Source of the DNA: Clostridium sp.
GTDB taxonomy: Bacteria; Bacillota; Clostridia; Clostridiales; Clostridiaceae
Reading direction: 5' to 3'
Assembly (NCBI RefSeq): GCF_022482905.1
Contig: NZ_JAKVOI010000001.1
Span: forward strand, 2,605,958-2,669,957
DNA: 64,000 nucleotides
The position numbers and the translations under genes are program-made. Shown here one piece after another: positions 23,726-55,482 of this stretch. Position 1 is the stretch's first letter. Every line of letters begins with the position of its first letter. The notes beneath the pieces were generated by a model. The model worked only from the letters and a program-made list of their open reading frames with translations, did not search any database and was not told the DNA's origin.

Positions 23726-24859
23726 TCATTTGATTACGATCATCTCATAGTCTCGAGTACCTAAACCGATTTTCTCTGCATGATCCAAGCAGCTGCGCCA
23801 TTCGGATTCAGGTGTAGAATTGATGAAGTGATCATGATTATCAACAAAATCCGGCTTTGACATATTGTCAGACAATTGGCTTCCAGGAAGCGGTGCAGCT
23901 TTCAAACAGGCATCTGCACAGGCTTGATCCAGTGCCAACGGGTCAAAAGACGCAAACATGCCCAGATTAGGGAGGATAGGTGTGTCGTTTTCTCCGTGAC
24001 AGTCACAATTTGGTGATACATCCACCACCAGGGAAATATGAAAACTAGGGCGACCATCTACTACCGCTTTAGTATACTCCGCCATACGACAGTTCAACAG
24101 CTCATTGGCAGCATCATTGTCAAATACAATAGCATCGAAATTACACGCACCCAGGCATCGACCACAGCCAACACAATTCTCGTGATTGACTATCATCTTT
24201 TTGCTGGCATCATCAAACTCCAGACCGCCATTGGCACATTCCTGCTGACATCTGCGGCATCCCCTGCACAGTGCCTTATCGATATGTGGCTTGCCACTGC
24301 TGTGCTGGTCTGTTTTCCCGGCACGAGAACCGCAGCCCATACCGATATTTTTGATGGCACCTCCAAAGCCGGTCATTTCGTGTCCCTTGAAATGTGTCAA
24401 ACTAATGAACACATCCGCATCCATAATGACACGTCCGATTCTGGCTTCTTTTACATATTCACCTCCTGCTACAGGTACTGCAATATCGTCGGTACCCTTC
24501 AGTCCGTCCCCAATCAGAACAGGACATCCTACAGTCAGTGGTGTAAAACCATTCTCCCATGCACATTCTAAATGTTCCAGAGCATTTTTTCGGCTGCCTG
24601 GATACATGGTGTTACAATCAGTTAAAAAAGGCTTGCCGCCTAATTCCTTCACCACATCAGTCACGGCCCTGGCATAATTTGGACGCAGATAGCTGATGTT
24701 CCCCAATTCACCAAAATGCATCTTGATAGCAACGAACTTTCCATCCATGTCGATCTGCCCAATACCCGCCTTTTTAATTAATTTTTTAAGCTTGGTAGGC
24801 AGTCCGTCTCCGAAGGCCACCGTGCGGAAATCCGTAAAATAAACTTTTGCTTTTTCCAT
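23726..24859 (-). CDS. DUF362 protein with two [4Fe-4S] ferredoxin clusters
   Basis: A 377-aa protein with a DUF362 domain split around a ferredoxin insert. The N-terminal part includes IKMHFGELGNISYLRP and ISLTHFKGHEMTGFGGAIKN. Two clusters follow: CRGCRRCQQEC (about residue 197) and CVGCGRCLGAC (about 229). The family is probably redox active, but its reaction is unknown. It is a single gene behind a promoter with a 19-base spacer and a MerR-type dyad, so it is likely induced by a stress sensed by a MerR protein encoded elsewhere. Confidence 0.87.
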   Translation of the reverse strand: MEKAKVYFTDFRTVAFGDGLPTKLKKLIKKAGIGQIDMDGKFVAIKMHFGELGNISYLRPNYARAVTDVVKELGGKPFLTDCNTMYPGSRKNALEHLECAWENGFTPLTVGCPVLIGDGLKGTDDIAVPVAGGEYVKEARIGRVIMDADVFISLTHFKGHEMTGFGGAIKNIGMGCGSRAGKTDQHSSGKPHIDKALCRGCRRCQQECANGGLEFDDASKKMIVNHENCVGCGRCLGACNFDAIVFDNDAANELLNCRMAEYTKAVVDGRPSFHISLVVDVSPNCDCHGENDTPILPNLGMFASFDPLALDQACADACLKAAPLPGSQLSDNMSKPDFVDNHDHFINSTPESEWRSCLDHAEKIGLGTRDYEMIVIK

Positions 24860-24977: not shown

Positions 24978-25644
24978 TTAATTTTTATGTGCAAACTTGG
25001 GCTCTCCATTGACAAACTCAATATTTTCAGGGGGAGTCAGGACTTCCAGATTTGGATTTTCAACAGCGTCCTGCAAGAGAGGTTCACTTATAATAATTTT
25101 TTCCAGCTCCATTGTATTTTTAATCCATATAATTCACTGTTCTGATTCTCCACACCAATGCAGGTCTTAACCGCTATTTTTATTGCATCTTCTGAATTCG
25201 ACGCTACCATGGGTATTTTATTTTACACGGCTCACTGTAATTGCTTGTAAAACAGTTTGTATACATAGCCTTAAAATCTATACTGTCAAATAATTTTCTT
25301 GTAATAACATCTGATACGCCTATTCCATTGGCATTTCCATTCTCCGTAGCTCCTCCATGGCTTCCCATGGCAGGTACTATAAAGGGCTTCGCCCCTATCT
25401 CTTTCAGACAGTCTATGACAGTCTTTGCTATTATATTTATATTGCAGATGCCACGACTTCCTATTCCAAGCGCAATCCTTTTGTTTTTTAAATTGTTTAT
25501 ATATGGTTTAATACCCTGTCTTATTTCAACATCAACATTCTCAATGCATTCATTTTTAAATTTCTGCCTGACTTTAAAAAATCTCGGCAGCTGTATATCT
25601 GGAAATTTATCTAAATCAATGGATTCCACATCATACACCTCCAT
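24978..25644 (-). pseudogene. LarA/DUF2088-like (lactate racemase family) remnant
   Basis: The first 147 codons (MEVYDVESIDLDKFPDIQLP to KIKYPW) begin like the DUF2088 family and contain IALGIGSRGI and PAMGSHGGAT. After GGATENG the sequence jumps directly to what looks like the family C-terminus (NANGIGVSDVITRKLF), so a central block of roughly 200 residues seems deleted. A frameshift at KIKYP continues with PMVASNSEDAIKIAVKTCIG, and a second shift near LKI leads into TMELEKIIISEPLLQDAVEN and a stop at 24978. It is the last gene of the transporter operon and is inactive. Confidence 0.7.
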
Positions 25645-25710: not shown

Positions 25711-26709
25711 TTAATTTATTCCGGCATCTTTCAAGTAAGTCTTGTCTATGAGATCATCCACTTTTACATCTTTCCTGATCGTATTATTCTGTCTCAGAGT
25801 TTTAATTGTTGAGGAAAGTGATTTTGTAACCTCGTCAGTCAATCTTATATTGAAATCTTCTTTTGCAAGACCTTTTTGCACAATATTCTTCTTCAATTTG
25901 AGTTCCTTGGATATAATATCTGCAGCCTGATCAGGATTCGACTTAGCCCATTTTTCAGTTTTTTCATAGACCTTTAGAACCCTTTTAACAATATCAGAAT
26001 TCTTTTTGGCAAATTCATTATCGGCTATGATGAAATTTACATCATATTTCAGGTTAGTTCCATCTCCTATCTGATAAGCTGTCTTCTCATCTTCTATTGA
26101 AGATGCATATGGCTCCCAAACAAGCCCGGCATCAATATTTTTAGATGAAAATGACGTTTTTATATCAGGTGGTTGTAAATTAACAAGCTGTATATCACTC
26201 TGCTTCAATCCCGCTGATTCCAGGTATCTTGCAAGAAGCATATGGGCAGATGAACCAACTGTAACTGCAACTTTCTTGCCTTTCAAATCCTTGGCTGACT
26301 TTATATTAGAACCAGTTGCTGCAAGTATGGAGTTCAATTTATACCCTGCTGCATAGACTCCAATAGCCTTTATATCTATGCTATTTGCTCTTGCCTGTAT
26401 GGCCGGCTGATCTCCAACTTCTCCTATATCAAGCTTCCCACCTGCAAATGCTTCGATCATAGGAGGCCCTGAAACAAAACTTTGAAAATTAATTTTTATA
26501 TTGTCTTTCTTGAATTCCTGAGTAAACCATCCTTTATTCTTTGCAATAATTAAGAGTGAATGATTTATTCCCGGTTGATAACCTATATTTATTTCTTTTG
26601 GTTTCGATGAATCCTCTTTACTGCCTCCTGAACCAGTTGTTTGCCCGCATCCTGAAAGAGCAAACAAACTTATTAAAAATATTGAAATTACAGGAAATAT
26701 CTTTTTCAT
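25711..26709 (-). CDS. Sulfonate/nitrate/taurine-type ABC transporter binding lipoprotein
   Basis: A 332-aa SsuA/TauA-like solute-binding protein. It has a lipoprotein signal (MKKIFPVISIFLISLFALSG then Cys) and a NMT1-type two-lobe fold: INIGYQPGINHSLLIIAKNK, KLDIGEVGDQPAIQA and AGLVWEPYASSIED are the typical ligand-cleft segments. The ATG at 26709 follows AAGAGG; upstream ATGs at 26718 and 26730 are less well placed. It is unusual in lying last in its operon, after the ATPase and two PLP-enzyme genes. The substrate is probably a sulfonate or related sulfur compound, judged from the leader. Confidence 0.87.
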   Translation of the reverse strand: MKKIFPVISIFLISLFALSGCGQTTGSGGSKEDSSKPKEINIGYQPGINHSLLIIAKNKGWFTQEFKKDNIKINFQSFVSGPPMIEAFAGGKLDIGEVGDQPAIQARANSIDIKAIGVYAAGYKLNSILAATGSNIKSAKDLKGKKVAVTVGSSAHMLLARYLESAGLKQSDIQLVNLQPPDIKTSFSSKNIDAGLVWEPYASSIEDEKTAYQIGDGTNLKYDVNFIIADNEFAKKNSDIVKRVLKVYEKTEKWAKSNPDQAADIISKELKLKKNIVQKGLAKEDFNIRLTDEVTKSLSSTIKTLRQNNTIRKDVKVDDLIDKTYLKDAGIN

Positions 26710-26740
26710 ATTAAACATCCTCTTAAACATCCTCCTCTTT

Positions 26741-27940
26741 TTAAATATCTGTATCAATCTCAATTACTGGAAGTTCCTCTTTAACCAAATTAGGGTATTT
26801 CAATCCACTACCAGTATTTAAAATTACAACTTTTTCATCCGACTTCAAGAAACCGGTTCCATACAACTTTTCTACTGCAGCAATTAATGACGCTCCTTCA
26901 GGACATATGAACAGTCCTTCAGTCTTTGCAAGCAAATTAAGCGAATCAAGAATTTCCGAATCTTTTACTTCAACTGCAGTACCACCACTTTTTCTAATCG
27001 CATCAAGCACTATAAAATCTCCCAGAGCTTTTGGAACTCGTATTCCTCCCGCTATGGTATTTGCCGTTTTACAAAACTCCGAATCCTTCCTTCCTTCATT
27101 AAATGCCTTTACAATAGGATTGCAGCCTTCTGCCTGAACTGAAATAAGCTTTGGAACCTTGCCCTTTATCCATCCAAGCTCTTTAAGCTCCTGAAAGGCC
27201 TTCCATATTCCAATTATTCCTACGCCTCCCCCGGTAGGATAGAGTATGGCATCCGGGAATTCCCAGCCGAAGTACTCGGCGATCTCAAGTCCCATGGTCT
27301 TTTTACCTTCTATTCTGTAAGGTTCTTTCAAAGTAGCCGCATCAAACCAGCCATATTTTTTTACTCCCTTGGCTATTATTTTTCCTGCATCAGATATAAG
27401 ACCCTTTACAAGATAAGTTTTTGAACCGTATATATAAGCTTCTTTCTTGGCAAGATCCGGTGCATCATAAGGCATGGCAACTACAAGTTCTATTCCAGCC
27501 TTTGCTGAATATGCCGACCAGGCACCTCCTGCATTTCCAGCTGTTGGCATAGCTATAGTTTTTATTCCAAGTTCTTTTGCCTTTGAAACACCTACAGCAG
27601 CTCCCCTTGCCTTAAAAGTACCCGTAGGATTCAATCCTTCATCTTTTATATAGAGATTTTCAATGCCTATTTTCCTCCCTAGTTTTCCAGCCTTAATTAC
27701 AGGTGTATCACCTTCACCCAGTGTAACTATATTTTCCTCGTTCTTTACAGGCAATAGTTCCTTGAATCTAAACAGTCCCCTTCTTCTGGATTTGAATACA
27801 TTCCTATCTATATTTTCCTTTATTTTGGAAAGATCATATCTTACAAGTAACGGACCACCGCAGTGACATAAATTATGCGGCTCATCTGTTGAATACCTTT
27901 CACCGCATTTTGAACACTCAAGATAACTAACATAACTCAT
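26741..27940 (-). CDS. Threonine-synthase-family PLP enzyme, paralogue 1
   Basis: A 399-aa fold-type II PLP enzyme of the threonine synthase family, which normally converts O-phosphohomoserine to threonine. An N-terminal zinc-ribbon-like C9-x2-C12-x12-C25-x-C27 is followed by the PLP lysine K110 in NPTGTFKARG and the phosphate loop PTGGGVG. This architecture also matches archaeal threonine and cysteate synthases. A near-twin lies 28 bases upstream, and both sit between ABC transporter genes under a SAM/T-box leader. The reaction may therefore involve sulfur; family membership is sure, substrate is not. Confidence 0.88.
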   Translation of the reverse strand: MSYVSYLECSKCGERYSTDEPHNLCHCGGPLLVRYDLSKIKENIDRNVFKSRRRGLFRFKELLPVKNEENIVTLGEGDTPVIKAGKLGRKIGIENLYIKDEGLNPTGTFKARGAAVGVSKAKELGIKTIAMPTAGNAGGAWSAYSAKAGIELVVAMPYDAPDLAKKEAYIYGSKTYLVKGLISDAGKIIAKGVKKYGWFDAATLKEPYRIEGKKTMGLEIAEYFGWEFPDAILYPTGGGVGIIGIWKAFQELKELGWIKGKVPKLISVQAEGCNPIVKAFNEGRKDSEFCKTANTIAGGIRVPKALGDFIVLDAIRKSGGTAVEVKDSEILDSLNLLAKTEGLFICPEGASLIAAVEKLYGTGFLKSDEKVVILNTGSGLKYPNLVKEELPVIEIDTDI

Positions 27941-27968
27941 AAATCATTTCTCCTTTATTTGAATATTT

Positions 27969-29159
27969 TTAAATAGTTTCAATCAACGGAAGCTTCTCAT
28001 CAATCAAATCAGGATATTTTAAACCACTTCCGGTATTCAAAAGTACAATTTTCCATTCGGGTTTTAAAAATCCGTCTTCAAACAATTTTTTTACTGCTGC
28101 AACTAATGCACCTCCTTCAGGGCATACAAGCAGTCCCTCGGTCTTTGCAAGCAAATCAAGTGAATCAAGAATTTCTGAGTCTTTTACTTCAACTGCAGTA
28201 CCACCGCTTTTTCTGATTGCATCTAAAACCATAAAATCTCCCAGAGCTTTTGGAACTCGTATTCCTCTCGCTATAGTATTTTGATTTTTGCATAATTCTG
28301 AAATTTCTTTATTCTCTTTAAATGCTTTTACAATGGGAGCACACCCTTCTGCCTGAACGGCAATAATTTTTGGAACTTTGCCATTTATCCATCCAAGTTC
28401 CCTGAGCTCCTGAAAAGCCTTCCATATTCCAATTATTCCTACACCTCCTCCCGTTGGATAGAGTATGGCATCCGGAAATTCCCAGTCGAAGTACTCGGCA
28501 ATTTCCAGTCCCATAGTCTTTTTTCCCTCTATTCTATAGGGTTCCTTTAGAGTGACCGCCTCAAACCATCCATATTTTTTTATAGCTTTATTTATTATCT
28601 TATCTGCATCAGATATAAGACCTTTTACAAGATAAGTTTTTGACCCATATACAAAAGCCTGCTTCTTAGCCAGAACTGCAGCATCATCAGACATGACAAC
28701 CACGAGTTTGATTCCTGCTCTGGCCGAATACGCTGACCAAGCACTTCCTGCGTTTCCAGAAGTGGACATGGCTATGGTTTTTATTCCAAGTTCTTTTGCT
28801 TTTGAAACACCTACAGCAGCACCTCTTGCCTTAAAAGTGCCCGTAGGATTCAATCCTTCATCTTTTATATAGAGATTTTCAGCACCAATTTTTTTTCCCA
28901 GCTTTTTAATCTTGATTACAGGTGTATCGCCTTCACCCATTGTAACCATATTTTTTCCCTCTTTTATGGGTAGAAGTTCTCTAAATCTAAAAATACCTTT
29001 TCTTCTTGTTTTAAAAACATCTTTATTTATATTTTTCCTTATTTTATCAAGATCATATTGTGCAAGCAGCGGCCCATTGCACCGACATAAGTTCTGCGGT
29101 TGATCAGCCGAATATATCTTCCCGCATTTTGAACATTCCAGATACTTTAAATAAGTCAT
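27969..29159 (-). CDS. Threonine-synthase-family PLP enzyme, paralogue 2
   Basis: A 396-aa close homologue of the gene downstream; most residues match, including the CSKC...CRC zinc-ribbon-like start, the PLP-lysine motif NPTGTFKARG and PTGGGVG. Differences cluster around residues 130-160 (STSGNAGSAWSAYSARAG against PTAGNAGGAWSAYSAKAG), near the expected active site, and around IARGIRVPK against IAGGIRVPK. ATG 29159 has GGAGGAG at eight bases; longer in-frame extensions run into the ATPase gene. Tandem duplication followed by divergence suggests two related substrates. Confidence 0.87.
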   Translation of the reverse strand: MTYLKYLECSKCGKIYSADQPQNLCRCNGPLLAQYDLDKIRKNINKDVFKTRRKGIFRFRELLPIKEGKNMVTMGEGDTPVIKIKKLGKKIGAENLYIKDEGLNPTGTFKARGAAVGVSKAKELGIKTIAMSTSGNAGSAWSAYSARAGIKLVVVMSDDAAVLAKKQAFVYGSKTYLVKGLISDADKIINKAIKKYGWFEAVTLKEPYRIEGKKTMGLEIAEYFDWEFPDAILYPTGGGVGIIGIWKAFQELRELGWINGKVPKIIAVQAEGCAPIVKAFKENKEISELCKNQNTIARGIRVPKALGDFMVLDAIRKSGGTAVEVKDSEILDSLDLLAKTEGLLVCPEGGALVAAVKKLFEDGFLKPEWKIVLLNTGSGLKYPDLIDEKLPLIETI

Positions 29160-29190
29160 GGGAACAATCTCCTCCATCCAAAATCTTATA

Positions 29191-29982
29191 TTATATGTTA
29201 TATGAAAATGGATTTTCCACTTTTGTAAAGAACTCATCATATATTTGACTTTTAATACGTGTAAAATCATAGCTGCTTCTGTCTCTGGGCCTAGGTAAAC
29301 CAACAGGTATAATCTTCTTGACTCTGCCGGGTCTACTGGACAATACAACCACCCTGTCTCCAAGATAAACTGCTTCATCTATATCATGGGTTACAAGTAT
29401 CATGGTAGTATTTTCCTTCTTCCATATTTTAAGAATTTCCTGCTGCATATTAATGCGTGTCATAGCATCCAGTGCACCAAAAGGCTCATCCAGCAGCAAC
29501 AGTTTTGGTTTGTTTATAAGTGACCTGGCAATACTTATTCTCTGTTTCATCCCTCCTGATAGCTGGGAAGGATAGGACTTCGCAAAATTAGTTAATTCAA
29601 CCAGGTCCAACTGTTCATAAACCAGCTTTCTCTTTTCTTCTTTGGACATCTTCTTGCTTATTCCGAATTCTATATTTTTTTCTACTGTAAGCCATGGGAA
29701 AAGTCTGGATTCCTGAAACACCATTCCTCTGTCTATTCCAGGACCATCGACAGCCTTACCATAGGAAAGTATATTACCTACATAATCTCTATCCAGACCG
29801 ACTATTATTCTAAGCAGAGTACTTTTCCCGCATCCACTTGATCCAACAATACTTAAAAACTCTCCCTGTTTAACTGATAAATTTATATTGTTTAAAACAT
29901 TGAGATCACCACCTTCTTTTTTAAAAGTTTTATTCAAATTTTCTATTTCAATAGCACCTGGTTTCTCCTGTACCACGGACAT
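29191..29982 (-). CDS. SsuB/TauB-type ABC transporter ATPase
   Basis: A 263-aa ATPase of the nitrate/sulfonate/taurine importer group. Walker A GSSGCGKST is at about residue 53, the signature is LSGGMKQRISIA, Walker B is LLLLDEPFGALD and the switch His is in VTHDIDEA. It is 28 bases downstream of the permease gene and 31 bases upstream of threonine-synthase paralogue 2, and is co-transcribed with them. Confidence 0.93.
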   Translation of the reverse strand: MSVVQEKPGAIEIENLNKTFKKEGGDLNVLNNINLSVKQGEFLSIVGSSGCGKSTLLRIIVGLDRDYVGNILSYGKAVDGPGIDRGMVFQESRLFPWLTVEKNIEFGISKKMSKEEKRKLVYEQLDLVELTNFAKSYPSQLSGGMKQRISIARSLINKPKLLLLDEPFGALDAMTRINMQQEILKIWKKENTTMILVTHDIDEAVYLGDRVVVLSSRPGRVKKIIPVGLPRPRDRSSYDFTRIKSQIYDEFFTKVENPFSYNI

Positions 29983-30010
29983 GATTTCTCAACTCCCTAA
30001 TTAATCAATC

Positions 30011-30799
30011 TTAGCTACCTGAATCCCATCTTACAACTAAAATTTGCAGCTTCTTTATTATATAATCTATCAAGAATCCAATTACACCTATTGAAGCAAC
30101 CCCTACCAGCATTATATCCGGTTGTGATAATTCTCTTGCATAGGATATTGAATATCCTATACCTGAAGTTGCTGCAATTATCTCTGCTGTAATTACACTC
30201 ATCCATGCACTTCCAATTCCAATGCGCAGGCCTGTAAAAATAGATGGCAGTGCTGATGGAAAAACTATTTTTTCAAGTGTCTCAAGCTTACTTTTTTCTA
30301 ATATTTCAGAAACTTCCAAATACTTTTTGTCTGCTCCCTTTATTCCATAAATAGTATTTATAAGTATCGGCCAAAAACTTCCGATTACTATTACCGTTAT
30401 TTTAGAAGCTTCACCTATTCCCATCCATAGTATAAGAACGGGAACCCATGCCACAATAGGAATTGGTCTTAAAAACCCTATAAGCAGGTCAACAGCATTT
30501 TCTGCTATTCTGAACAATCCAATGAATATACCACATATTATTCCTAAAGATGCACCTATACAATAGCCTTTTATAACTCTCAGTATACTTATAGACAAAT
30601 TTCTCGCCAGATCTCCACTTTTAACCATATCTATAAATGCCAGAAATATGGTATGAGGAGACGGTAGTACGGACTGTTTAATAAGTCCTCTATCACTTAA
30701 AATTTGCCACAGTATAATAAGTATTATCGGAACTATAAGTGCAATACCTATTCTACCAATAAATTTAATTTTTTTACTAAAGCCGGACTTTACGTTCAT
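30011..30799 (-). CDS. SsuC/TauC-type ABC transporter permease
   Basis: A 262-aa permease with six membrane helices. The EAA-type ATPase-contact loop is visible around EKIVFPSALPSIFTGLRIGI, and PIPIVAWVPVLILWMGIG is typical of the sulfonate/taurine group. The ATG at 30799 follows GAGGTG; an ATG five codons earlier is poorly placed. It is the first structural gene of the operon, directly after the SAM riboswitch terminator. Confidence 0.92.
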   Translation of the reverse strand: MNVKSGFSKKIKFIGRIGIALIVPIILIILWQILSDRGLIKQSVLPSPHTIFLAFIDMVKSGDLARNLSISILRVIKGYCIGASLGIICGIFIGLFRIAENAVDLLIGFLRPIPIVAWVPVLILWMGIGEASKITVIVIGSFWPILINTIYGIKGADKKYLEVSEILEKSKLETLEKIVFPSALPSIFTGLRIGIGSAWMSVITAEIIAATSGIGYSISYARELSQPDIMLVGVASIGVIGFLIDYIIKKLQILVVRWDSGS

Positions 30800-30832
30800 C
30801 TTTACACACCTCATATTTTGACTTAATTAAGA

Positions 30833-30862
30833 AAGCTGTTTTTCAAATAAGAAAAACAGCTT
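30833..30862 (-). terminator. Riboswitch-controlled terminator
   Basis: A 12-bp stem AAGCTGTTTTTC / GAAAAACAGCTT followed by TTCTTAATT on the minus strand, between the SAM aptamer and the permease gene. It is the expected expression platform. Confidence 0.8.
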
Positions 30863-30899
30863 GAATTCAATCTAAAACATTTCAAAATCAACTATTTTT

Positions 30900-31010
30900 C
30901 TTATCTCTCAGAATAGTAAATACTCTGCAGGAATTAACACCATTGCATTCTAATGAAAAATGCTGGTTGTCGGGCTTCATAGGGCCAGTCCCTCTGCCTC
31001 TCGTGATAAG
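30900..31010 (-). promoter_or_regulatory. SAM-I (S-box) riboswitch aptamer
   Basis: On the minus strand CTTATC (31010) pairs with GATAAG (30900) as P1. The conserved core follows: GAGAGGCAGAGGGACTGGCC, CTATGAAGCCCGACAACC, AATGGTGTTAATTCCTGCAG and CTGAGAGATAAG. These are the hallmark segments of SAM-I aptamers, which bind S-adenosylmethionine and stop transcription. It controls the transporter/threonine-synthase-like operon downstream. Confidence 0.95.
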
Positions 31011-31026
31011 AGAATATACAGTTTTC

Positions 31027-31056
31027 AACATATAATTATATATTCCACTTTGTCAA
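31027..31056 (-). promoter_or_regulatory. Promoter in front of the SAM riboswitch
   Basis: TTGACA-N18-TATGTT on the minus strand, between the T-box terminator and the SAM aptamer. It would give a transcript controlled by the S-box alone. Confidence 0.55.
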
Positions 31057-31089: not shown

Positions 31090-31318
31090 AATACAAAAAA
31101 TCCTGTTCTCTTAATGCAGAGGCAGAATTTATCCGCGGTCCCACTCTGTTTACTGTAAATAGATTCTCATACAGCAACTCTATAATTAATGCTCAAGAAT
31201 GCACTTCAGTTAATTCCGTTCAGGACTTCTCACAGCTTACAAAAATCCCTCTCTTCGAACTTTTCTCAACCTACTCTTCTCCATCATTGCAAATATTTCT
31301 TTTATATTTCTTCAACTT
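31090..31318 (-). promoter_or_regulatory. T-box leader (tRNA-sensing, probably Cys)
   Basis: The minus strand has the full T-box order: the AGTA bulge and AGAGAGGG in stem I, a stem I return strand with AACTGAAGTGCATTC, the T-box AGAGTGGGACCGCGG (31147-31133), then a hairpin with TTTTTT (31130-31090). The specifier is best read as TGC (Cys, 31203-31201), which leaves the conserved purine A just after it. GTG (Val) is the alternative register. Uncharged tRNA would favour readthrough into the S-box leader and operon. Confidence 0.9.
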
Positions 31319-31355: not shown

Positions 31356-31413
31356 ATACCAAAAACATATCTAATTTATAGCTATAAGATATAAATTATG
31401 AAGGGTGATTATC

Positions 31414-32274
31414 ATGGATATAAGACAACTCAAGTACTTTCTTACAATAGTAGAAAAGGGAAGTATAACTAAAGCTGCACGACAACTTCACATAGCACAG
31501 CCTCCATTAAGTCAGCAGCTCAAACTGCTGGAAAAAGAGCTTGGAATTAAATTGATAGAAAGAAATACAAGAAAGCTGCAAATAACTGATGCGGGAAGGA
31601 TACTTCAATACCGTTCCAAACAAATTCTTGAACTGACTAAAAATACAAAAAAAGAACTTGAAAATTTAAAGGACGGATTTAAGGGTATACTATCTATAGG
31701 TACAGTAGCATCTTCCGGTACTACAATACTGCTGAAAAAATTAAATGATTTTCATGAAAAGTATCCCCACATAAACTTTACTATAAGAGAAAGCAGCACC
31801 TCTGAAATTCTCAAACTCCTCAATACAGGAATTATAGAAGTTGGTATAGTATTTACTCCTTTTAATTCTGAAAAGTTTGAATCATTGCTGCTTCCAAGTG
31901 AATCAATGGTTGCAGTTGTAAAACAGGGTTCCTATTTTGACAGTCTCAAAAATAAAATCAGTTTAGACGGTTTAATAAACAAGCCGTTGATAGTAGACCA
32001 CAAATTTAAAGATATGCTAATTTCATCCTGTCATCAAATTGGTTTCGAACCTAGAATACTATGTGAAAATGAAGATGCAAGGTCGGTTTTACTATGGGCT
32101 GCTACTGGTATTGGTATAGGTGTGGTTCCAAAATCTGCTTCAGAGCTGATTCCCCGACTAAGTTTAAAATATATTGAAATAAACGAATTATCCCTCAAAA
32201 CTCGTCCTGCAGTAGTATGGGTTAGAAATAGGTATTTATCCGATATAGCCAAAGACTTTATAAATACATTTTGA
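31414..32274 (+). CDS. LysR-family transcriptional regulator
   Basis: A 286-aa LysR regulator. The N-terminal helix-turn-helix is MDIRQLKYFLTIVEKGSITK followed by AARQLHIAQPPLSQQLKLLE. The effector domain begins near residue 92 (ILSIGTVASSGTTIL). The ATG at 31414 is preferred over an upstream GTG because of AAGGGTG spacing. It is divergent from the T-box/S-box operon, a common arrangement for LysR regulators of sulfur genes, and a 12-bp palindrome (TTATAGCTATAA, 31376-31387) lies in between. Its ligand is not known. Confidence 0.9.
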   Translation: MDIRQLKYFLTIVEKGSITKAARQLHIAQPPLSQQLKLLEKELGIKLIERNTRKLQITDAGRILQYRSKQILELTKNTKKELENLKDGFKGILSIGTVASSGTTILLKKLNDFHEKYPHINFTIRESSTSEILKLLNTGIIEVGIVFTPFNSEKFESLLLPSESMVAVVKQGSYFDSLKNKISLDGLINKPLIVDHKFKDMLISSCHQIGFEPRILCENEDARSVLLWAATGIGIGVVPKSASELIPRLSLKYIEINELSLKTRPAVVWVRNRYLSDIAKDFINTF

Positions 32275-48386: not shown

Positions 48387-49493
48387 ATGAAAAATAGGAT
48401 CTTAACAGCAATTTTTTTCAGTGCCTTTTTATTGATTGCATCCAATAATACTGTACAAGCAGCAAGTTTCAAGGATAATCAAATGGTACCTGCTGACAAG
48501 ACCTGGACCATTGTATTCAACAGCGATGTAGGACTTGACAACGGACAAATACAGGGTCTGAGTGTAACAGACAGTAAGAGCAATACCATAACAGTAGATG
48601 TCAAACTAGGTAACAATAATAAAACAGTTATAGTAACTCCTCCGGCAAGTGGCTATAAACCGGGAGAAAGCTATACATTAAATTTGGGAAATAAGCTTCA
48701 TTCTATAAAAGGCAAACCATTAAAAAAAGAATACAAATTACATTTTAATATTCAAAATGACTATACAGTAACTTTCAAAGACAGTAACTTGGAAAAAGCA
48801 GTAAGAGATGCAATAAACAAGCCAACTGGAGATATCTACAAAAGTGATGTTGAAAAAATCACAGAGCTTAACGCTGAATGGATGGGAATACAGGATCTTA
48901 GTGGAATTGAGAACTTAACCAGCCTGCGATCACTCCATCTATATAATTCAAACCTCAATGACATTAGTCCATTGAAAAATTTAACTAATTTACAGGACCT
49001 GGACTTATGTTATACGGGAATCAGTGACATTACTCAATTAAAAAACCTGACTAATTTGGAAAAACTTAATTTAGGTGTAAACCAAATTAGTGATATAAGC
49101 GCACTAAAAGAATTAAAGAATTTAAAAACCCTTGATTTAGGTGAAAATGAAATCAATGATATAAGCCCATTGGAAGGACTGACCAATTTAAAAAACCTCG
49201 ATTTGAACTATAATCAAATCCAAGATATTACTCCATTAAAGAACTTAACCAATTTAACATTACTTATTCTATATGAGAATCAAATCAGTGATATTACTCC
49301 ACTAAAAAAATTAACTAAGCTGTACTTCCTCGATGTAACAGATAATCAAATCAGTAATATCAATACACTGAAAGGATTGACCAATTTAAAAACTCTTTAT
49401 CTGGATAATAAACAGATTAGTGCTGATGATTTGCAGGCATTAGAAAGCTCACTGCCAAATTGTAATATCAAATATGAAAGAGACTATAAATAA
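48387..49493 (+). CDS. Secreted leucine-rich-repeat (internalin-like) protein
   Basis: A 368-aa secreted protein. A signal peptide (cleavage likely near VQAASF, residue 25) leads to an Ig-like SbsA-type domain (about 27-118, with IVTPPASGYKPGESYTL), then a cap and eight 22-residue LRRs (about 170-350) of the type LTNLKNLDLNYNQIQDITPL. This is the internalin class. There is no LPXTG, S-layer or choline-binding anchor, so it is released or held by charge. The ligand is unknown. It has its own terminator. Confidence 0.87.
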   Translation: MKNRILTAIFFSAFLLIASNNTVQAASFKDNQMVPADKTWTIVFNSDVGLDNGQIQGLSVTDSKSNTITVDVKLGNNNKTVIVTPPASGYKPGESYTLNLGNKLHSIKGKPLKKEYKLHFNIQNDYTVTFKDSNLEKAVRDAINKPTGDIYKSDVEKITELNAEWMGIQDLSGIENLTSLRSLHLYNSNLNDISPLKNLTNLQDLDLCYTGISDITQLKNLTNLEKLNLGVNQISDISALKELKNLKTLDLGENEINDISPLEGLTNLKNLDLNYNQIQDITPLKNLTNLTLLILYENQISDITPLKKLTKLYFLDVTDNQISNINTLKGLTNLKTLYLDNKQISADDLQALESSLPNCNIKYERDYK

Positions 49494-49511
49494 GAAAATT
49501 AAAAAAGAACA

Positions 49512-49545
49512 CGGCAGTCCTTTTGTACAGAAGGATTGCCGATTT
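49512..49545 (+). terminator. Terminator of the LRR gene
   Basis: CGGCAGTCCTT and AAGGATTGCCG arms with an eight-base loop, then ATTTTATTT. It may also serve the converging L,D-transpeptidase gene. Confidence 0.85.
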
Positions 49546-49553
49546 TATTTGAA

Positions 49554-50390
49554 TCATCGTATTAAAATACCTGAACCTATAGGCACATTATCATAAATAT
49601 ATTTTGCATTTTCAAGAGCCAGTCTTATACAGCCATGGGAAGCGGATCTCCCGAGAGTACCGTCTATCAAATTCCCATTTTCGTCAAATAAAACACTGTG
49701 AAATAAATAATTCCCTTTAAACTGTGTAAAGTACTTAAGTATGGCTCCACTTTCCGATTTAAACTGAGCCCCTTTTATTCCTACAAAGAACTGACCCTTG
49801 ACTGTGGGTGTACCTCCCGTTCCCGACGCACACTGAAATAAATTTATCAATTTCCATTCATGTGGTCGTCCATTAAAGATATACACCATCTGCTCTGATG
49901 TACTGACCATAATATAGTAATCAGTATAACTCTGGGTATCCAGTTTGTTTATTATACCTTCAGGATAAGCTGAATTAAAATTAGAAACTACCTCAGCCGT
50001 AGGCTTGTACATCATATCTTCTGTAGGTTTCTTTTTTAAATCTGCCAATGTAGCATCTTTTACTATTCCATCTGTTGTAAGACCATGTTTATGCTGAAAA
50101 TCCATCACGGCATAAACTGTTTGTTCCCCAAAGTCTCCATCTTCATCTACAGTATAACCAAATTTTTTGAGTTTCTTCTGAATATCTTTTACATCATTTC
50201 CCTTGTCTCCCGCCTTAAGAATATTTCTAGGTGGTATCTGTTTTTTTTCTTTTGGATGTGAAGTTATATTACCTACAACATTCACCTTTTGAGTATTTTT
50301 CTTATTATCTGTACTAAATAAACTACTGCATGCAGAAAAACTAAAGATTATTATCACAACTATAATTTCAGTCAATAAAACTCGTTTCAT
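49554..50390 (-). CDS. L,D-transpeptidase lipoprotein with peptidoglycan-binding domain
   Basis: A 278-aa extracytoplasmic enzyme that makes 3-3 peptide cross-links in the cell wall. The signal peptide ends in a lipobox-like IFSFSAC. A PG_binding_1 domain (about 60-110, GDKGNDVKDIQKKLKKFGYT) precedes a YkuD catalytic domain with the active-site motif SASHGCIRL holding the nucleophile Cys. Single gene. The N-terminal anchor and linker length are ordinary for clostridial members. Confidence 0.92.
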   Translation of the reverse strand: MKRVLLTEIIVVIIIFSFSACSSLFSTDNKKNTQKVNVVGNITSHPKEKKQIPPRNILKAGDKGNDVKDIQKKLKKFGYTVDEDGDFGEQTVYAVMDFQHKHGLTTDGIVKDATLADLKKKPTEDMMYKPTAEVVSNFNSAYPEGIINKLDTQSYTDYYIMVSTSEQMVYIFNGRPHEWKLINLFQCASGTGGTPTVKGQFFVGIKGAQFKSESGAILKYFTQFKGNYLFHSVLFDENGNLIDGTLGRSASHGCIRLALENAKYIYDNVPIGSGILIR

Positions 50391-50565
50391 ATGATTCTAC
50401 CATCCCTCTTACTGCTTAAATATTACTCCATATAGATATTATTATAGCATGGAATAACATTATTTCTCATAGTTTTGAAAAGAATAATAAATTTAGTCCT
50501 CATATATTTTTTATCTATTATAATATATAATAAGATTAAAATACATATTAGAAAAGGTGAAAGTT

Positions 50566-50841
50566 ATGAAACAATGTATGGATTCTGACAATTTGCACAG
50601 ACGTATAAAAAAAATAATAGGTCAAATTAAGGCCATAGATAAAATGATTGATGAAGATATTCCATGTGAAGATGTTCTAATACAGATCAATGCAGTTAAA
50701 AGTGCTGTTCATAAGGTTGGACAAATAGTTTTGGAAGGTCATTTAAATCATTGTGTCAGAGATGGAATTCAACATGGAGATGCAGAAAAAACAATAGCAC
50801 AATTCGCAAAAGCACTGGAGCATTTTTCACGGATGTCTTGA
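50566..50841 (+). CDS. csoR: CsoR/RcnR-family metal-sensing repressor
   Basis: A 91-aa four-helix repressor. It starts HRRIKKIIGQIKAIDKMIDE, and the Cys-His-Cys metal ligands lie in DIPCEDVL and EGHLNHCV, the set used by copper sensors (CsoR). The ATG at 50566 follows AAAGGTG. A P-type metal ATPase gene follows after a terminator, with an operator-like palindrome in its promoter, so this protein probably controls that gene. Confidence 0.87.
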   Translation: MKQCMDSDNLHRRIKKIIGQIKAIDKMIDEDIPCEDVLIQINAVKSAVHKVGQIVLEGHLNHCVRDGIQHGDAEKTIAQFAKALEHFSRMS

Positions 50842-50848
50842 ATATCTC

Positions 50849-50880
50849 AAACTGTTTATATAAAAATAAACAGTTTTTTT
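50849..50880 (+). terminator. Terminator of csoR
   Basis: AAACTGTTTAT and ATAAACAGTTT arms followed by a run of T. The ATPase therefore depends on its own promoter. Confidence 0.85.
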
Positions 50881-50882
50881 AT

Positions 50883-50931
50883 TTGACAAAAAAATAATCA
50901 GGCTATATTATACATATAGGGGTATATGTAT
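50883..50931 (+). promoter_or_regulatory. Promoter and CsoR-type operator of the P-type ATPase gene
   Basis: TTGACA-N17-TATTAT (50883-50911) is followed by ATACATATA-GGGG-TATATGTAT (50910-50931), a perfect inverted repeat around four G. G-tracts flanked by an AT-rich dyad are the operator type of CsoR/RcnR repressors, and it overlaps the -10 and start site. Confidence 0.85.
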
Positions 50932-50954
50932 AATATAAAAATAAAGGAGTGCTT

Positions 50955-52820
50955 ATGGAAAAAGTAAAAAATTTTTTTAAGGATGAAGAAAAACGTGTTA
51001 TTCTGTTTATGCTTTTGTCGGGTATATCGCTTGTTGTCAGTTTCTTTGATATCGGCAAATTACCTCTGGATGCCGCATGGCTTTCAATTATTCTATGTGG
51101 AGTACCAATTGTAAAAGAAGCTATTATCGGGCTTGTCACAAGTTTTGATATCAAAGCTGATTTATTGGTCTCCATAGCATTGATTGCCTCTATTATAATC
51201 AATCAAATATTTGCTGCCGGAGAAGTTGCTTTTATCATGACTATAGGTGCATTCCTTGAGGAAAGAACCGTCAATAAAGCTCGTGCTGGTATTGAAAAGC
51301 TTGTACATCTTACTCCTCAAGTTGCAAGAGTTATAAGAAATGGCATAGAGCAGATGATTCCTGCAGATAAAATCCAGATAGGAGACATTATAAAAGTTCT
51401 GGCAGGAGAAATCGTAGCTGTGGACGGAACAATCATAAGTGGTAAAACTTCTATTGATCAGTCAGTAATGACAGGCGAATCACTCCCCGTTGATAAAGAA
51501 ACCGGAGACCAAGTATTCAGTGGAACCTTGAACCAATTTGGAACTTTTAACATGAAAGCTACAAAACTCGGTGAGGACAGCTCTCTGCAGAGAATGATAA
51601 AACTTGTAAAGTCAGCTGATGCAAGTAAAGCAAAGATCGTCGGAATTGCAGACAGATGGGCAACCTGGATTGTTGCCGGTGCCTTGAGCACGGCAATTCT
51701 TACCTGGTTTGCTACAGGTGAAATAATACGTTCTGTAACAATATTGGTTGTATTTTGTCCATGTGCATTAGTCCTTGCAACTCCTACAGCCATAATGGCA
51801 GGCATAGGCAATGCAACAAAATACGGTATCCTGATACGTGAGGGAGATGCCCTTGAAAGGTTGGCAAATGTACGAAGAATATCTTTTGATAAAACAGGTA
51901 CACTTACATATGGACAACTGTCCGTTACAGCAGTCGAAAATTTTAATACAAGCATATCCAAGGAAACACTATTACAATTGACGGCATCAGCAGAAATTCG
52001 CTCAGAGCATCCTCTCGGCAAGGCAATAATTAAATATATAAAGAATATTCCTAATATTTCAATTAATGAACCTGATGAATTCAAGGTAATTGCCGGAAGA
52101 GGTGTACAAGCTAAAATAAACAATTATTCAATTCTTGCTGGGAATATTGAAATGATGGCAGACAATAATATTTCAATACCAGAACGAATGGATAAAAAGG
52201 CCTCTAGATATAAAGGTGCCGGATGTACAATTATGTATATATCAATTAATGGTAATGCATCAGGATTTATAGCACTTTCTGATACTCTCAGGGAAGATGC
52301 CATTGACATGATTAAAGCTATTGAAAGAACTAAAGTAAAAAGCATTTTACTTACAGGAGACAACCGCCAGGCAGCATGTCATATCGCAAAACTCGTCGGA
52401 ATAGATGACATATGTTCTAATTGCCTGCCGGAAGATAAAATATCTGCAATAGAAAAATATCAAAGCAAAAATGAACCGGTATGTATGGTTGGTGACGGTG
52501 TCAATGATGCTCTGGCACTAAAAAAAGCCTATGTAGGAATAGCCATGGGTGGAATTGGCAGTGACATTGCAATTGATGCAGCTGATATTGCACTTATTAG
52601 AGATGATATAAAATGCATACCCCACTTGTTAAGCCTGGCCAAAAAAGTAACAAAAACCATCAAGTTAAATTTAACATTCTCCATGGCATTAAATTTTATA
52701 GCTGTTGTTCTGGCTATATTAGGAATATTGGGTCCAGTAGTAGGTGCACTTGTACATAATGCTGGATCGGTATTGGTTATTCTAAATTCATCATTATTAT
52801 TAAATTGGAAGGGGAGATAA
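50955..52820 (+). CDS. Heavy-metal-exporting P1B-type ATPase
   Basis: A 621-aa metal pump. Visible are eight membrane helices, the membrane metal site CPCALVLATPT, the phosphorylation motif FDKTGTLT, the actuator TGES and the hinge GDGVNDALAL. There is no N-terminal HMA or His-rich metal-binding domain. The last helix ends HNAGSVLVILNSSLLL, which is neither the Asp-Gly of zinc pumps nor the Met-Ser-Ser of typical copper pumps. The nearby CsoR points to copper, but the motif leaves the metal open. ATG 50955 follows AAAGGAG. Confidence 0.9.
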   Translation: MEKVKNFFKDEEKRVILFMLLSGISLVVSFFDIGKLPLDAAWLSIILCGVPIVKEAIIGLVTSFDIKADLLVSIALIASIIINQIFAAGEVAFIMTIGAFLEERTVNKARAGIEKLVHLTPQVARVIRNGIEQMIPADKIQIGDIIKVLAGEIVAVDGTIISGKTSIDQSVMTGESLPVDKETGDQVFSGTLNQFGTFNMKATKLGEDSSLQRMIKLVKSADASKAKIVGIADRWATWIVAGALSTAILTWFATGEIIRSVTILVVFCPCALVLATPTAIMAGIGNATKYGILIREGDALERLANVRRISFDKTGTLTYGQLSVTAVENFNTSISKETLLQLTASAEIRSEHPLGKAIIKYIKNIPNISINEPDEFKVIAGRGVQAKINNYSILAGNIEMMADNNISIPERMDKKASRYKGAGCTIMYISINGNASGFIALSDTLREDAIDMIKAIERTKVKSILLTGDNRQAACHIAKLVGIDDICSNCLPEDKISAIEKYQSKNEPVCMVGDGVNDALALKKAYVGIAMGGIGSDIAIDAADIALIRDDIKCIPHLLSLAKKVTKTIKLNLTFSMALNFIAVVLAILGILGPVVGALVHNAGSVLVILNSSLLLNWKGR

Positions 52821-52835
52821 ACTTTATGAAATCAA

Positions 52836-52884
52836 AAGGAGTTATCTTTTTCAGAGCTTGATTTGCCATCTAAGATAACTCCTT
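52836..52884. terminator. Terminator between the P-type ATPase and the lipoprotein gene
   Basis: AAGGAGTTATCTT pairs with AAGATAACTCCTT across a 23-base loop, with T-rich flanks. It separates converging genes. Confidence 0.8.
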
Positions 52885-52889
52885 ATATA

Positions 52890-54020
52890 TTATTTTTTCA
52901 GCAGAAGACTGTCAGCTATTTTAATGGCGTCATCCAAAGACATCTTTGGATCTTGAAGTAAAATATTGTAGTTGAGCCCATCTTCACTCCAGCTTACAGT
53001 TTTTATAGTATCATCCATTACACTTCCCTTTTTACCACGTACCTGCATTTCCTTTTCACCAGGTAGTTTTGCATCATCTGATTTTTCTCCGGTATCCTTT
53101 GGATTTACTGCAGTGAGCACAAATGCTACGGCACCATCTTTTTCATAGCTCTGATTTATTTCATTTACTCCTTTTGATTCATCATAATGCAGGGATTTAA
53201 CATCTTTAAGTTTATATGCTCCTCCTTCCGGAAGATAAAGTATGGGTTTCCCAACAAGCTTTACTGCCTCGTTGAGGGTTATAACATTTTCTGAATTTTT
53301 GATTTGATTATCCATATCTTCAACTTTTATATTATCAGGAAGCTTCTGGGAGAACAAACTGCTGTCCAGCTTAGGTGAAAAATCAAGCTTTGAATACTGT
53401 ATCTCTGTTTTACTATTTTTTGAAGTAATTACAGCCTTTGAAACAATCCAGCTCTCTTCATCCACCCAGTAGTCCAAAGTGCCTAGAATAGTATCCTTTT
53501 GTTTTGGCTCCGCCTTGATATGATAGGTTTTCCTATCTAACACATTCTCTTCGCCCTGAAAAGTAATATTGTGGGTTTTACTCATGCTTGCCAGTTGTTT
53601 CAACAATTGATTTTTGTAGTTTCCTCCCAGTACATCATCTGCACCGTTTGCCGTGGAGCTTTCAAGATTCATAGTCATAGCCTGCTTTTGTTCTTTCATA
53701 TATACTATAATATTTTTACCATCATTTGTTGATATGGTCGTTCCAGATGAATTGTCCTTTAATTCTACACGCCTTTTCACCACATCATTGGAATTATCAA
53801 TCCATTCTCTGGCAGATACAGTCTCTTTTATTTTATTGTTTTCATAAATCTTCATTTTATATTCACCATAATAGGACTTGGGTTTTTCACTGGCACTGAC
53901 AGCCTTTTTTATCACATCCTCCGGAATAATGGTTTTCTTATCCAGACTGCATCCTCCAAATAAGCCAGTTATAGACAATATTCCCACAACAGGTATTATA
54001 AATATTTTTTTAATTGACAT
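52890..54020 (-). CDS. LolA-like / DUF4367 lipoprotein
   Basis: A 376-aa envelope lipoprotein. The signal (MSIKKIFIIPVVGILSITGL) ends at a Cys in FGGCS. A LolA/LppX-like beta half-barrel (about 30-225, including WVDEESWIVSKAVI) is followed by a second domain like DUF4367 (about 250-375). It begins one base after the kinase stop codon, so it is translated with the two-component system. A role as accessory sensor or envelope-stress effector is an inference. Confidence 0.77.
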   Translation of the reverse strand: MSIKKIFIIPVVGILSITGLFGGCSLDKKTIIPEDVIKKAVSASEKPKSYYGEYKMKIYENNKIKETVSAREWIDNSNDVVKRRVELKDNSSGTTISTNDGKNIIVYMKEQKQAMTMNLESSTANGADDVLGGNYKNQLLKQLASMSKTHNITFQGEENVLDRKTYHIKAEPKQKDTILGTLDYWVDEESWIVSKAVITSKNSKTEIQYSKLDFSPKLDSSLFSQKLPDNIKVEDMDNQIKNSENVITLNEAVKLVGKPILYLPEGGAYKLKDVKSLHYDESKGVNEINQSYEKDGAVAFVLTAVNPKDTGEKSDDAKLPGEKEMQVRGKKGSVMDDTIKTVSWSEDGLNYNILLQDPKMSLDDAIKIADSLLLKK

Positions 54021-54021
54021 T

Positions 54022-55482
54022 TCAATCCTCTCCTTTACTATATATAGGAAACCAGCATACAAATGCCGTGCTATTTTCATCTGAAAATAGCTTTATTTCA
54101 CCACAATGCTTTTTTATAACCAACTTTACAATACTCAGCCCCAAACCGACTTCATTCTGTGAAGTTTTATTTCTTGCCTTGTCCACTTGATAGAAAGGCA
54201 TAAATATTTTTTTTCGTTCATTTTCTGGAATTCCATTTCCGTCATTTTTGACAACTACAATGCATCCTTTTTCTCTCCAGCTTATAATATCCTTTTGAAA
54301 ATCTTTTTTTATCCAGGGAGGAAGTCCTTTTTCCAATGAAAATGCACCAAGCCATATGCGGCCATTTTGGGGAGTATATTTCAATGCATTTGCCATCAGA
54401 TTATCAATTACCCTGGTCATCTGTTTTACATCCACCTTTATGGTGTAGTCGGCATCTGTATCTACTTCAAGTTTTATACTGCGCTTTTCACAATTTTGCT
54501 CATAACCTGAAAATAACATTTCAAAAAACTCATTTCCCCATACTTCCACAAAATTCACTTTATAATCGGATGTAAGTACAGTATACAGCATGAGATCGTC
54601 TATCATCTTTTTCATGTAATCACTTTTATTCAATATAATTGAAGACCTGCTCTTTATTTTTGGCATATCGAGATCTCTTTCATTGTAAATTGACTCGGCA
54701 TATGCTCTTATTGATGTAAGGGGGGTCTTTAGATCATGCGAAACTGCCGATATCATATACTGTTTTGTTTTACGCTGGAAATCTATTACTTCCTGTTTTC
54801 TCTCTATATCTTTTTTCATGCCGTTGAAATTTCTTATAAGTTCTCCTATTTCATCCTTGCTCTTATATTTCACCGATTTTTTACCGCCTTCAGCAAAATC
54901 GTTCATACCCTCTATCAACAACTTTATGGGCCTGTTAAACTTTCTATTTAAAAGAATTATAACTGTCAAAAAAACCAGAAGGATTATGGCTGCAAACATT
55001 CCCGCAATAATAATAGTTCTTATATTTATCTGTTTTATGAAATCTCCACGATATATTATTATCTCGTAAAATCCAACCAATTCACCTCTATAAAATACAG
55101 GTTTTTTCAAGCTGTACAAATTATATTTTGTAACTATTTCGTAGAGATGTGAATAGATTTCCTCCCTGCTCTTTGTATAGTCTGAATTCTCATCGGGAGC
55201 ATGAATCTCCTGTCCACTTCCATTGTATAAATTGATTTTAACGTCGTCTTTATCCTGATAATCCACAGCAGTATCCTTGTTTTCCATATCGGCCTCAGTA
55301 TAGATTTTATAATTGCCCAGTTTTTCTTCATAATATTTGAATTTGGCCACTGCATTCATATATTCTGTAAACTGAACCTTTTTATTGTAGGTTAAAATCA
55401 ACATATACAGCAAAAGCGATGAAACTATAGGAGTAATGACTACAGCCAGGTGGGATAATATAAGCCATTTTTTGAGTCTCAT
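54022..55482 (-). CDS. Sensor histidine kinase
   Basis: A 486-aa kinase with two transmembrane helices (about 8-30 and 160-185) around an extracellular domain. Then come HAMP (NRPIKLLIEGMNDFAEGG), the HisKA box SAVSHDLKTPLTSIRAYAES and an HATPase domain with NLMANALKYTP and GLGLSIVK. It overlaps the regulator gene by four bases (ATGA) and is followed at once by the lipoprotein gene, forming a three-gene operon. Confidence 0.93.
   Translation of the reverse strand: MRLKKWLILSHLAVVITPIVSSLLLYMLILTYNKKVQFTEYMNAVAKFKYYEEKLGNYKIYTEADMENKDTAVDYQDKDDVKINLYNGSGQEIHAPDENSDYTKSREEIYSHLYEIVTKYNLYSLKKPVFYRGELVGFYEIIIYRGDFIKQINIRTIIIAGMFAAIILLVFLTVIILLNRKFNRPIKLLIEGMNDFAEGGKKSVKYKSKDEIGELIRNFNGMKKDIERKQEVIDFQRKTKQYMISAVSHDLKTPLTSIRAYAESIYNERDLDMPKIKSRSSIILNKSDYMKKMIDDLMLYTVLTSDYKVNFVEVWGNEFFEMLFSGYEQNCEKRSIKLEVDTDADYTIKVDVKQMTRVIDNLMANALKYTPQNGRIWLGAFSLEKGLPPWIKKDFQKDIISWREKGCIVVVKNDGNGIPENERKKIFMPFYQVDKARNKTSQNEVGLGLSIVKLVIKKHCGEIKLFSDENSTAFVCWFPIYSKGED

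Follow-up and report, generated by a model that had tools for sequence, protein, structure and literature searches.

We analysed a window of 64,000 nucleotides of Clostridium sp. DNA, located at positions 2,605,958-2,669,957 of a genome that consists of one contig of 3.57 Mb, and describe here a five-gene operon encoding an ABC importer and two pyridoxal phosphate (PLP) enzymes related to threonine synthase (ThrC). All five genes lie on the minus strand in the order permease, ATPase, PLP-A, PLP-B and lipoprotein. They encode an SsuC-like ABC permease (30799..30011; PF00528, BPD_transp_1) with a possible alternative start at an upstream ATG at 30814, an SsuB-like ABC ATPase (29982..29191; PF00005, ABC_tran), the diverged enzyme PLP-A of 396 amino acids (29159..27969; PALP), the conserved enzyme PLP-B of 399 amino acids (27940..26741; PALP) and an SsuA-family substrate-binding lipoprotein (NMT1; TIGR01728) that starts at 26709 (ATG), or at 26718, and ends at 25711. 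The intergenic gaps in gene order are 28, 31, 28 and then 22 or 31 bases. The order, common direction, gene families and gaps of about 30 bases agree with the original prediction, which had been made from the DNA letters alone; its description of the two enzymes as near-identical was too strong, PLP-A and PLP-B being 78% identical in amino acids and 78.4% in DNA.

Judged from its protein matches, the importer is SsuABC-like and of the sulfonate type. The lipoprotein reaches 251.7 bits on the SsuA family TIGR01728, well above the cut-off of 163.5, and its best solved chain is 2x26, an aliphatic sulphonate-binding protein (134 bits), which supports the earlier proposal of a sulfonate-linked importer. 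The permease scores 182 bits on SaoP and 175 bits on the SsuC model PRK11365, and the ATPase 265 bits on SaoA and 218 bits on the SsuB model PRK11247, each below its own cut-off. Membership in the SaoXAP transporter family was tried and rejected, the scores for SaoX, SaoA and SaoP being 55.6, 264.6 and 182.4 bits against cut-offs of 300, 360 and 295.

Ahead of the operon, the original prediction had placed a T-box/S-box leader with sulfur-type control, and both RNA elements were found on the minus strand. The T-box leader (31296..31115; RF00230) matches over the full length of the model (1-219) with 75.6 bits and an E-value of 1.4e-16 in 605 bases, a score that is below the gathering threshold of 93 and the lowest of the 34 T-boxes listed for the genome. 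The T-box core AGAGUGGGACCGCGG is present and the specifier region is readable as GAAG-UGC-A, a string identical to that at the genome's own cysK. The corresponding position was read in 30 of the genome's 34 T-boxes (the operon's own is among the four left out), and two of them have the GAAGTGC string, one of which is at cysK (gene named by scan). Relatives L111 and L112 also have the string in their T-boxes, which score 105.2 bits (above gathering) and 72.9 bits (below gathering) on RF00230. For ten T-boxes the next gene could be assigned by eye, and a codon that matches it (Leu, Val, Phe, Ile, Ala, Ser, Pro, Trp, Asn and Thr) lies 0-2 bases after GAA; this free offset makes the codon-fit test soft, and the shared GAAGTGC string is firmer. 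The T-box therefore most likely reads UGC (Cys), with GUG (Val), given the offset, as a less likely reading.

The SAM riboswitch aptamer (S box; 31012..30898, RF00162) scores 88.9 bits, above the gathering threshold of 44.4, and on its 3' side there is a terminator-like hairpin (30862..30833) with a 12-bp stem and a T-rich tail, of which one was found against 0.2 expected (fold z -2.55). Between the T-box and the aptamer lies a weak promoter-like site (31056..31027; TTGACA-18-TATGTT, 10/12); six such sites were found against 3.4 expected (sd 2.0), which is not significant.

Both enzymes belong to the NCBIfam family PRK08197 (NF006050), with 611 bits for PLP-B and 579 bits for PLP-A against a cut-off of 303. 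They also pass the threonine synthase model TIGR00260 (178.7 and 195.6 bits, cut-off 167.1), their closest folds are of the ThrC type, and the structure model of PLP-B has a pLDDT of 94.2. Nevertheless, the identity of a canonical ThrC was rejected on the basis of active-site motifs, tree and a separate ThrC in the genome, despite the pass on TIGR00260. In the tree, 43 rows form one clade with a support of 100/100 and a branch of 1.02, and three solved ThrCs fall outside it; the tree program warns that long branches meet at the clade base, so that the deeper order is unsure. The motifs FKDRG, STGNT, NSVNP.R.EGQKT and VGNAGN are kept in the three solved ThrCs and replaced in PLP-A, PLP-B and all 43 clade rows, where FKDRG becomes FK[AS]RG, NPYR becomes EPYR and GNAGN becomes GGG[VT]G. 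We take the replaced motifs to be those that touch the substrate phosphate; no paper on the phosphate-binding residues of ThrC was found in the open literature. The canonical ThrC, of 497 amino acids, is encoded at 2.209 Mb (TIGR00260, 238.6 bits, cut-off 167.1). Since the operon enzymes stand apart from the solved ThrCs and this separate ThrC exists, they neither group with canonical ThrC nor are the sole thrC copies of the genome, so that the outcome named in the original prediction as refuting it did not occur. In our opinion it is very probable that they are not ordinary threonine synthases. Cysteate synthase, which the original prediction had named as a member of the same wider family, was also rejected, the two enzymes scoring 99.1 and 94.3 bits on TIGR03844, far below its cut-off of 324.9. 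Matches to PRK08197 occur in 21 of 398 Bacillota genomes, own included, and the cut-off was passed in two of 14 control genomes.

A search of 206 family genomes (E 1e-90) found the enzyme gene in nine, own included, and the source genome alone has two. PLP-B is 75-87% identical to the eight single-copy orthologues, the closest named relatives by enzyme being Clostridium algifaecis (87%), Clostridiaceae bacterium BL-3 (84%) and C. tyrobutyricum (75%). The dN/dS values indicate purifying selection on both copies: 0.15 between PLP-A and PLP-B, and against three orthologues 0.05-0.065 for PLP-B and 0.11-0.12 for PLP-A. Of the positions that do not vary among PLP-B and the eight orthologues, PLP-A departs at 26, with 25 replaced residues and the final one absent; PLP-B departs at three otherwise invariant positions. 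PLP-A and PLP-B differ, among others, at positions 132, 134, 139, 155, 157 and 202. One of the changes in PLP-A is at position 132 in the GN loop, which is proline in 42 of the 43 clade rows and serine in PLP-A alone, so that its loop reads STSGN instead of the P[TS][AN]GN of the clade. Because of these differences in selection and at invariant positions, PLP-B probably keeps the old job and PLP-A is probably changing.

The importer accompanies the enzyme gene throughout the family. Neighbouring genes were surveyed by tblastn (E 1e-8, within 7 kb, with the proteins of these loci as queries); the surveyed loci are related and the counts are not independent events. Same-strand matches for permease, ATPase and binding protein were seen in 9/9 family genomes, own included, with the permease and ATPase of C. 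tyrobutyricum (L102) located 5-6 kb away beside a second binding protein. Elsewhere, the trio was seen at one of 20 other Bacillota loci (L147, 26-48% identity), none of 11 contig loci and one of eight plasmid loci (L103). Matches for permease and ATPase also occur at three Azospirillum loci, and the L105 binding protein reaches 81 bits on SsuA_fam, below the cut-off. The smallest form of the operon, at L089, consists of the importer and one PLP enzyme, with no other desulfonating gene inside. In relative G002, the divergent neighbours are ThiF and JAB, which belong to an operon that also encodes a sulfite/nitrite reductase-TusA protein and a MetY-like enzyme; the reductase lies slightly farther away, and the counterparts of these genes in the source genome follow a SAM riboswitch. 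Nitrogenase-like and variant radical-SAM genes adjoin the operon in two of the eight relatives, namely L093 (assigned by family scan) and C. tyrobutyricum L102 (assigned by similarity for H and radical SAM and by eye for D and K). Among solved structures, the L093 D subunit matches best to a chain of 9FMG, identified as the MarDK complex in the available text of PMC12552129. Nine stretches covering the eight relatives were also surveyed for leader elements, and a T-box and/or SAM riboswitch was found ahead of the operon or its cluster in five of the eight: a SAM riboswitch in G004, G002 and G012 (where it stands before a nifH-like gene), a T-box in G135 and both in G001. Neither element was found at E 0.01 in the remaining three, the g23 genomes.

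Outside the family, an Aliarcobacter cluster holds ssuA, ssuD, permease, ATPase and amidohydrolase genes followed by the enzyme gene, and its SsuA passes the PRK11553 cut-off. No sulfur link was seen at most of the distant-relative loci surveyed. The sulfur context is consistent in Clostridiaceae and present in Aliarcobacter. In distant relatives, the enzyme gene stands beside RidA, a glutamate/dicarboxylate-type symporter and a YheO-like regulator (by eye). RidA was found near the enzyme gene at none of the nine family loci, 10 of the 20 other Bacillota loci (two of the 20, L153 and L154, fall outside the clade), one of the 11 contig loci and none of the eight plasmid loci, and its family was confirmed by scan for two loci. 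RidA deals with enamines, and its position directly beside the gene at 10 of the 20 other Bacillota loci suggests a beta-elimination. At one further locus (L140, 3642-9311), the PRK08197 gene is joined by Ldh_2, by TRAP-type transporter genes (by eye) and by SAF and UxaA-type genes, a row that could be a sulfolactate or sugar-acid operon. SuyAB is at most a tentative reading of the SAF and UxaA-type genes beside some relatives: their single solved match is galactarate dehydratase, and 23 of the 25 listed plasmid records of the L140 gene carry the annotation UxaA family hydrolase. Co-localisation with CuyB proved weak as a general test: CuyB occurs in 77 of the 398 genomes and PRK08197 in 21, and the two are together in three genomes (G438, G466 and G486) and adjacent in G466 alone.

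Elsewhere in the source genome, NIR_SIR passes its cut-off at one place, with a weak second match inside the same protein. This protein of 776 amino acids combines a TusA domain with a NIR_SIR and two NIR_SIR_ferr stretches; its best matches are the NirA and nitrite reductase models, all below cut-off, and the score does not separate sulfite from nitrite. Its surroundings (3,275,500-3,280,865; L158, 1500-6865) consist of a SAM riboswitch followed by ThiF, JAB, reductase-TusA and MetY-like (Cys/Met-PLP) genes, the first gene beginning about 420 bases past the riboswitch, a row which resembles the thiocarboxylate homocysteine route of Wolinella. MetA is present (NF047918, 507 bits, above cut-off), as are two MetY-like enzymes with 678 and 458 bits on TIGR01326, above and below its cut-off of 495, and a SAM riboswitch lies upstream of MetA and of each MetY-like gene. 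Two further loci were observed. At 1,060,763-1,071,560 (L094, 4763-15560), a GAAGTGC T-box and three SAM riboswitches are present. Further on come genes judged by eye to encode an importer and a gene for a variant radical-SAM protein (202 bits), after which a SAM riboswitch precedes a MetK-like gene; this is possibly a second sulfonate locus. At 48,884-54,063 (L160, 1884-7063), a SAM riboswitch, importer genes (by eye), a flavoprotein and a ferredoxin-like gene are present, the flavoprotein being fumarate-reductase/AprA-like (NF006131, 631 bits, above cut-off), and this is possibly a further sulfur-source operon.

Taking these features together, we infer that the operon may scavenge sulfur from a small organosulfonate by PLP-dependent elimination, a reading to which, taken as a whole, we give a probability of about 0.47. 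Uncharged tRNA-Cys would cause read-through at the T-box and low SAM would cause read-through at the SAM riboswitch, so that a shortage of both cysteine and SAM would be required to switch the operon on; should the promoter-like site be real, a shortage of SAM would suffice. The SsuABC-type importer would take up the sulfonate. PLP-B, with its ThrC fold and lyase-like active site, would form an external aldimine and then release the beta substituent, so that cysteate would yield sulfite and 2-aminoacrylate, the latter decaying to pyruvate and ammonium. The sulfite could pass to the reductase operon on the 3' side of the SAM riboswitch elsewhere in the genome, and PLP-A, as a duplicate with an altered substrate loop, may act on a second substrate. 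That the enzyme is a sulfur-releasing lyase in a sulfonate-scavenging operon, whatever its substrate, seems rather probable to us, and cysteate, the likeliest single substrate, is a tentative choice. A wider proposal is more tentative still, namely that PRK08197, whose members in Bacteria and Archaea carry the threonine synthase label, might be a separate family of PLP beta-eliminating lyases, its Clostridium branch being an oxygen-independent amino-sulfonate (cysteate) sulfo-lyase of an origin other than CuyA and the duplicate diverging to a second sulfur substrate. The original prediction had left it open whether the enzymes add or remove sulfur groups; the neighbours favour removal and not addition.

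The strongest rival is a MetM-like reaction, in which O-phosphohomoserine and either sulfide or a sulfur carrier would be converted to homocysteine or a different sulfur amino acid; the importer would feed the sulfur source and another enzyme would free the sulfur. It is strongest because the homocysteine synthase MetM of Streptomyces albulus is likewise homologous to ThrC and preceded by a SAM riboswitch (Hasebe et al., cited in the available text of PMC12172450). The operon enzymes have the ThrC fold, and the loop of PLP-A differs from that of the clade. However, the genome's MetA and its two MetY-like enzymes make a homocysteine-making role, which the original prediction had also suggested, unnecessary. 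In addition, the smallest operon (L089) has no separate desulfonating gene, and the motifs that we presume to contact the phosphate are replaced in 43/43 clade rows. We regard this explanation as unlikely.

A lyase with another substrate or leaving group is slightly less likely again: it might act on homocysteate by gamma-elimination, on S-sulfocysteine or in a thiol-releasing elimination. ThrC chemistry itself starts by gamma-elimination and an SsuA-type binding protein does not tell which sulfonate is bound, but none of our findings points to these compounds in particular. A threonine/serine ammonia-lyase, or a general amino-acid lyase for keto-acid supply, would have a sulfur-free substrate. 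It fits the RidA, symporter and YheO-like neighbours of distant relatives, and the ThrC of Microcystis deaminates threonine as well (available text of PMC12172450). The Cys-type T-box with the SAM riboswitch and the separate IlvA with its own T-box in the genome speak against such a role, which we hold to be improbable. That the operon simply encodes a second and a third threonine synthase agrees with the NCBIfam name of PRK08197, the TIGR00260 scores and the closest folds, but the canonical ThrC elsewhere, the replaced motifs, the sulfur-type control and the conserved tie to a sulfonate-type importer make it highly improbable.

For the proposed sulfonate-scavenging operon, the nearest known systems share parts of the arrangement. 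CuyA belongs to a PLP subfamily other than the ThrC fold, unlike the PRK08197 enzymes, and CuyB lies beside one relative alone. For cysteate lyase CuyA with racemase CuyB, the available text of PMC11382572 describes the reaction proposed here, in which a PLP enzyme splits cysteate into sulfite, ammonia and pyruvate. The available text of PMC12452182 describes ssuABC genes of Bacillota under T-box and SAM tandem leaders, the same kinds of leader and importer as here, and T-box SAM makes up 8% of the contiguous-riboswitch cases for ssuA, ssuB and ssuC in its Table 2; in that text, however, no ThrC-like enzyme is tied to those operons, which are treated as hydroxymethylpyrimidine transporters. 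MetM likewise has its upstream SAM riboswitch, but it makes homocysteine and no sulfonate importer is mentioned in the available text (PMC12172450). Rhodobacter capsulatus assimilates isethionate with nitrogenase-like isrBHDK and ssuCAB (PMC11423573), which is likewise an oxygen-free assimilation of a sulfonate with an Ssu importer, and similar nitrogenase-like genes adjoin the operons of two relatives; there the desulfonation is nitrogenase-like, and the available text mentions neither threonine synthase nor cysteate. Cysteate synthase, with CapA2 (9k3c) as a solved example, is set apart by the TIGR03844 scores given above. Among the open-licence papers listed, no title or abstract opening dealt with a sulfonate operon that contains a ThrC homologue.

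After the lipoprotein gene lies a broken remnant of a LarA-family gene (nickel-pincer isomerase group 22; 24993..25638, minus strand) in three frames, with frame changes and a large internal deletion. LarA22 is intact in five of the eight relatives and Ldh_2 follows it in four. In the source genome, an intact LarA22 lies at 2.58 Mb and an intact Ldh_2 at 2.38 Mb beside a proS-like gene (by eye); this Ldh_2 is 79% identical to that of C. algifaecis, which has the same proS-like neighbour. With LarA broken here and Ldh_2 at the proS locus, the operon has therefore probably moved or split. A sulfolactate route, in which LarA and Ldh_2 would lead to sulfopyruvate, was demoted to an optional add-on: for the Ldh_2 of L090, L-sulfolactate dehydrogenase is the top-scoring model, but at 257 bits it stays below the cut-off of 500; the best solved match of this Ldh_2 is a malate dehydrogenase (297 bits) against 211 bits for sulfolactate dehydrogenase, and LarA group 22 occurs in 86 of the 398 Bacillota genomes. 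Farther downstream, a DUF362-ferredoxin protein is encoded at 23726-24859 on the strand of the operon. A divergent LysR-family regulator lies at 31405-32274 (best NCBIfam match CidR, below cut-off), and a similar LysR-type gene is divergent from the permease in five of the eight relatives (L089, L090, L091, L092 and L100).

To our knowledge, freeing sulfonate sulfur through SsuD or TauD depends on oxygen and is therefore closed to strict anaerobes. Stripping of sulfur from an imported sulfonate would, if tested and true, be a new oxygen-free form of sulfur scavenging, and it would explain how some Clostridia free sulfonate sulfur, with a PLP enzyme and an importer under the control of a Cys-type T-box and a SAM riboswitch. 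The curated name threonine synthase would then be wrong for a large group of proteins and would mislead pathway prediction.

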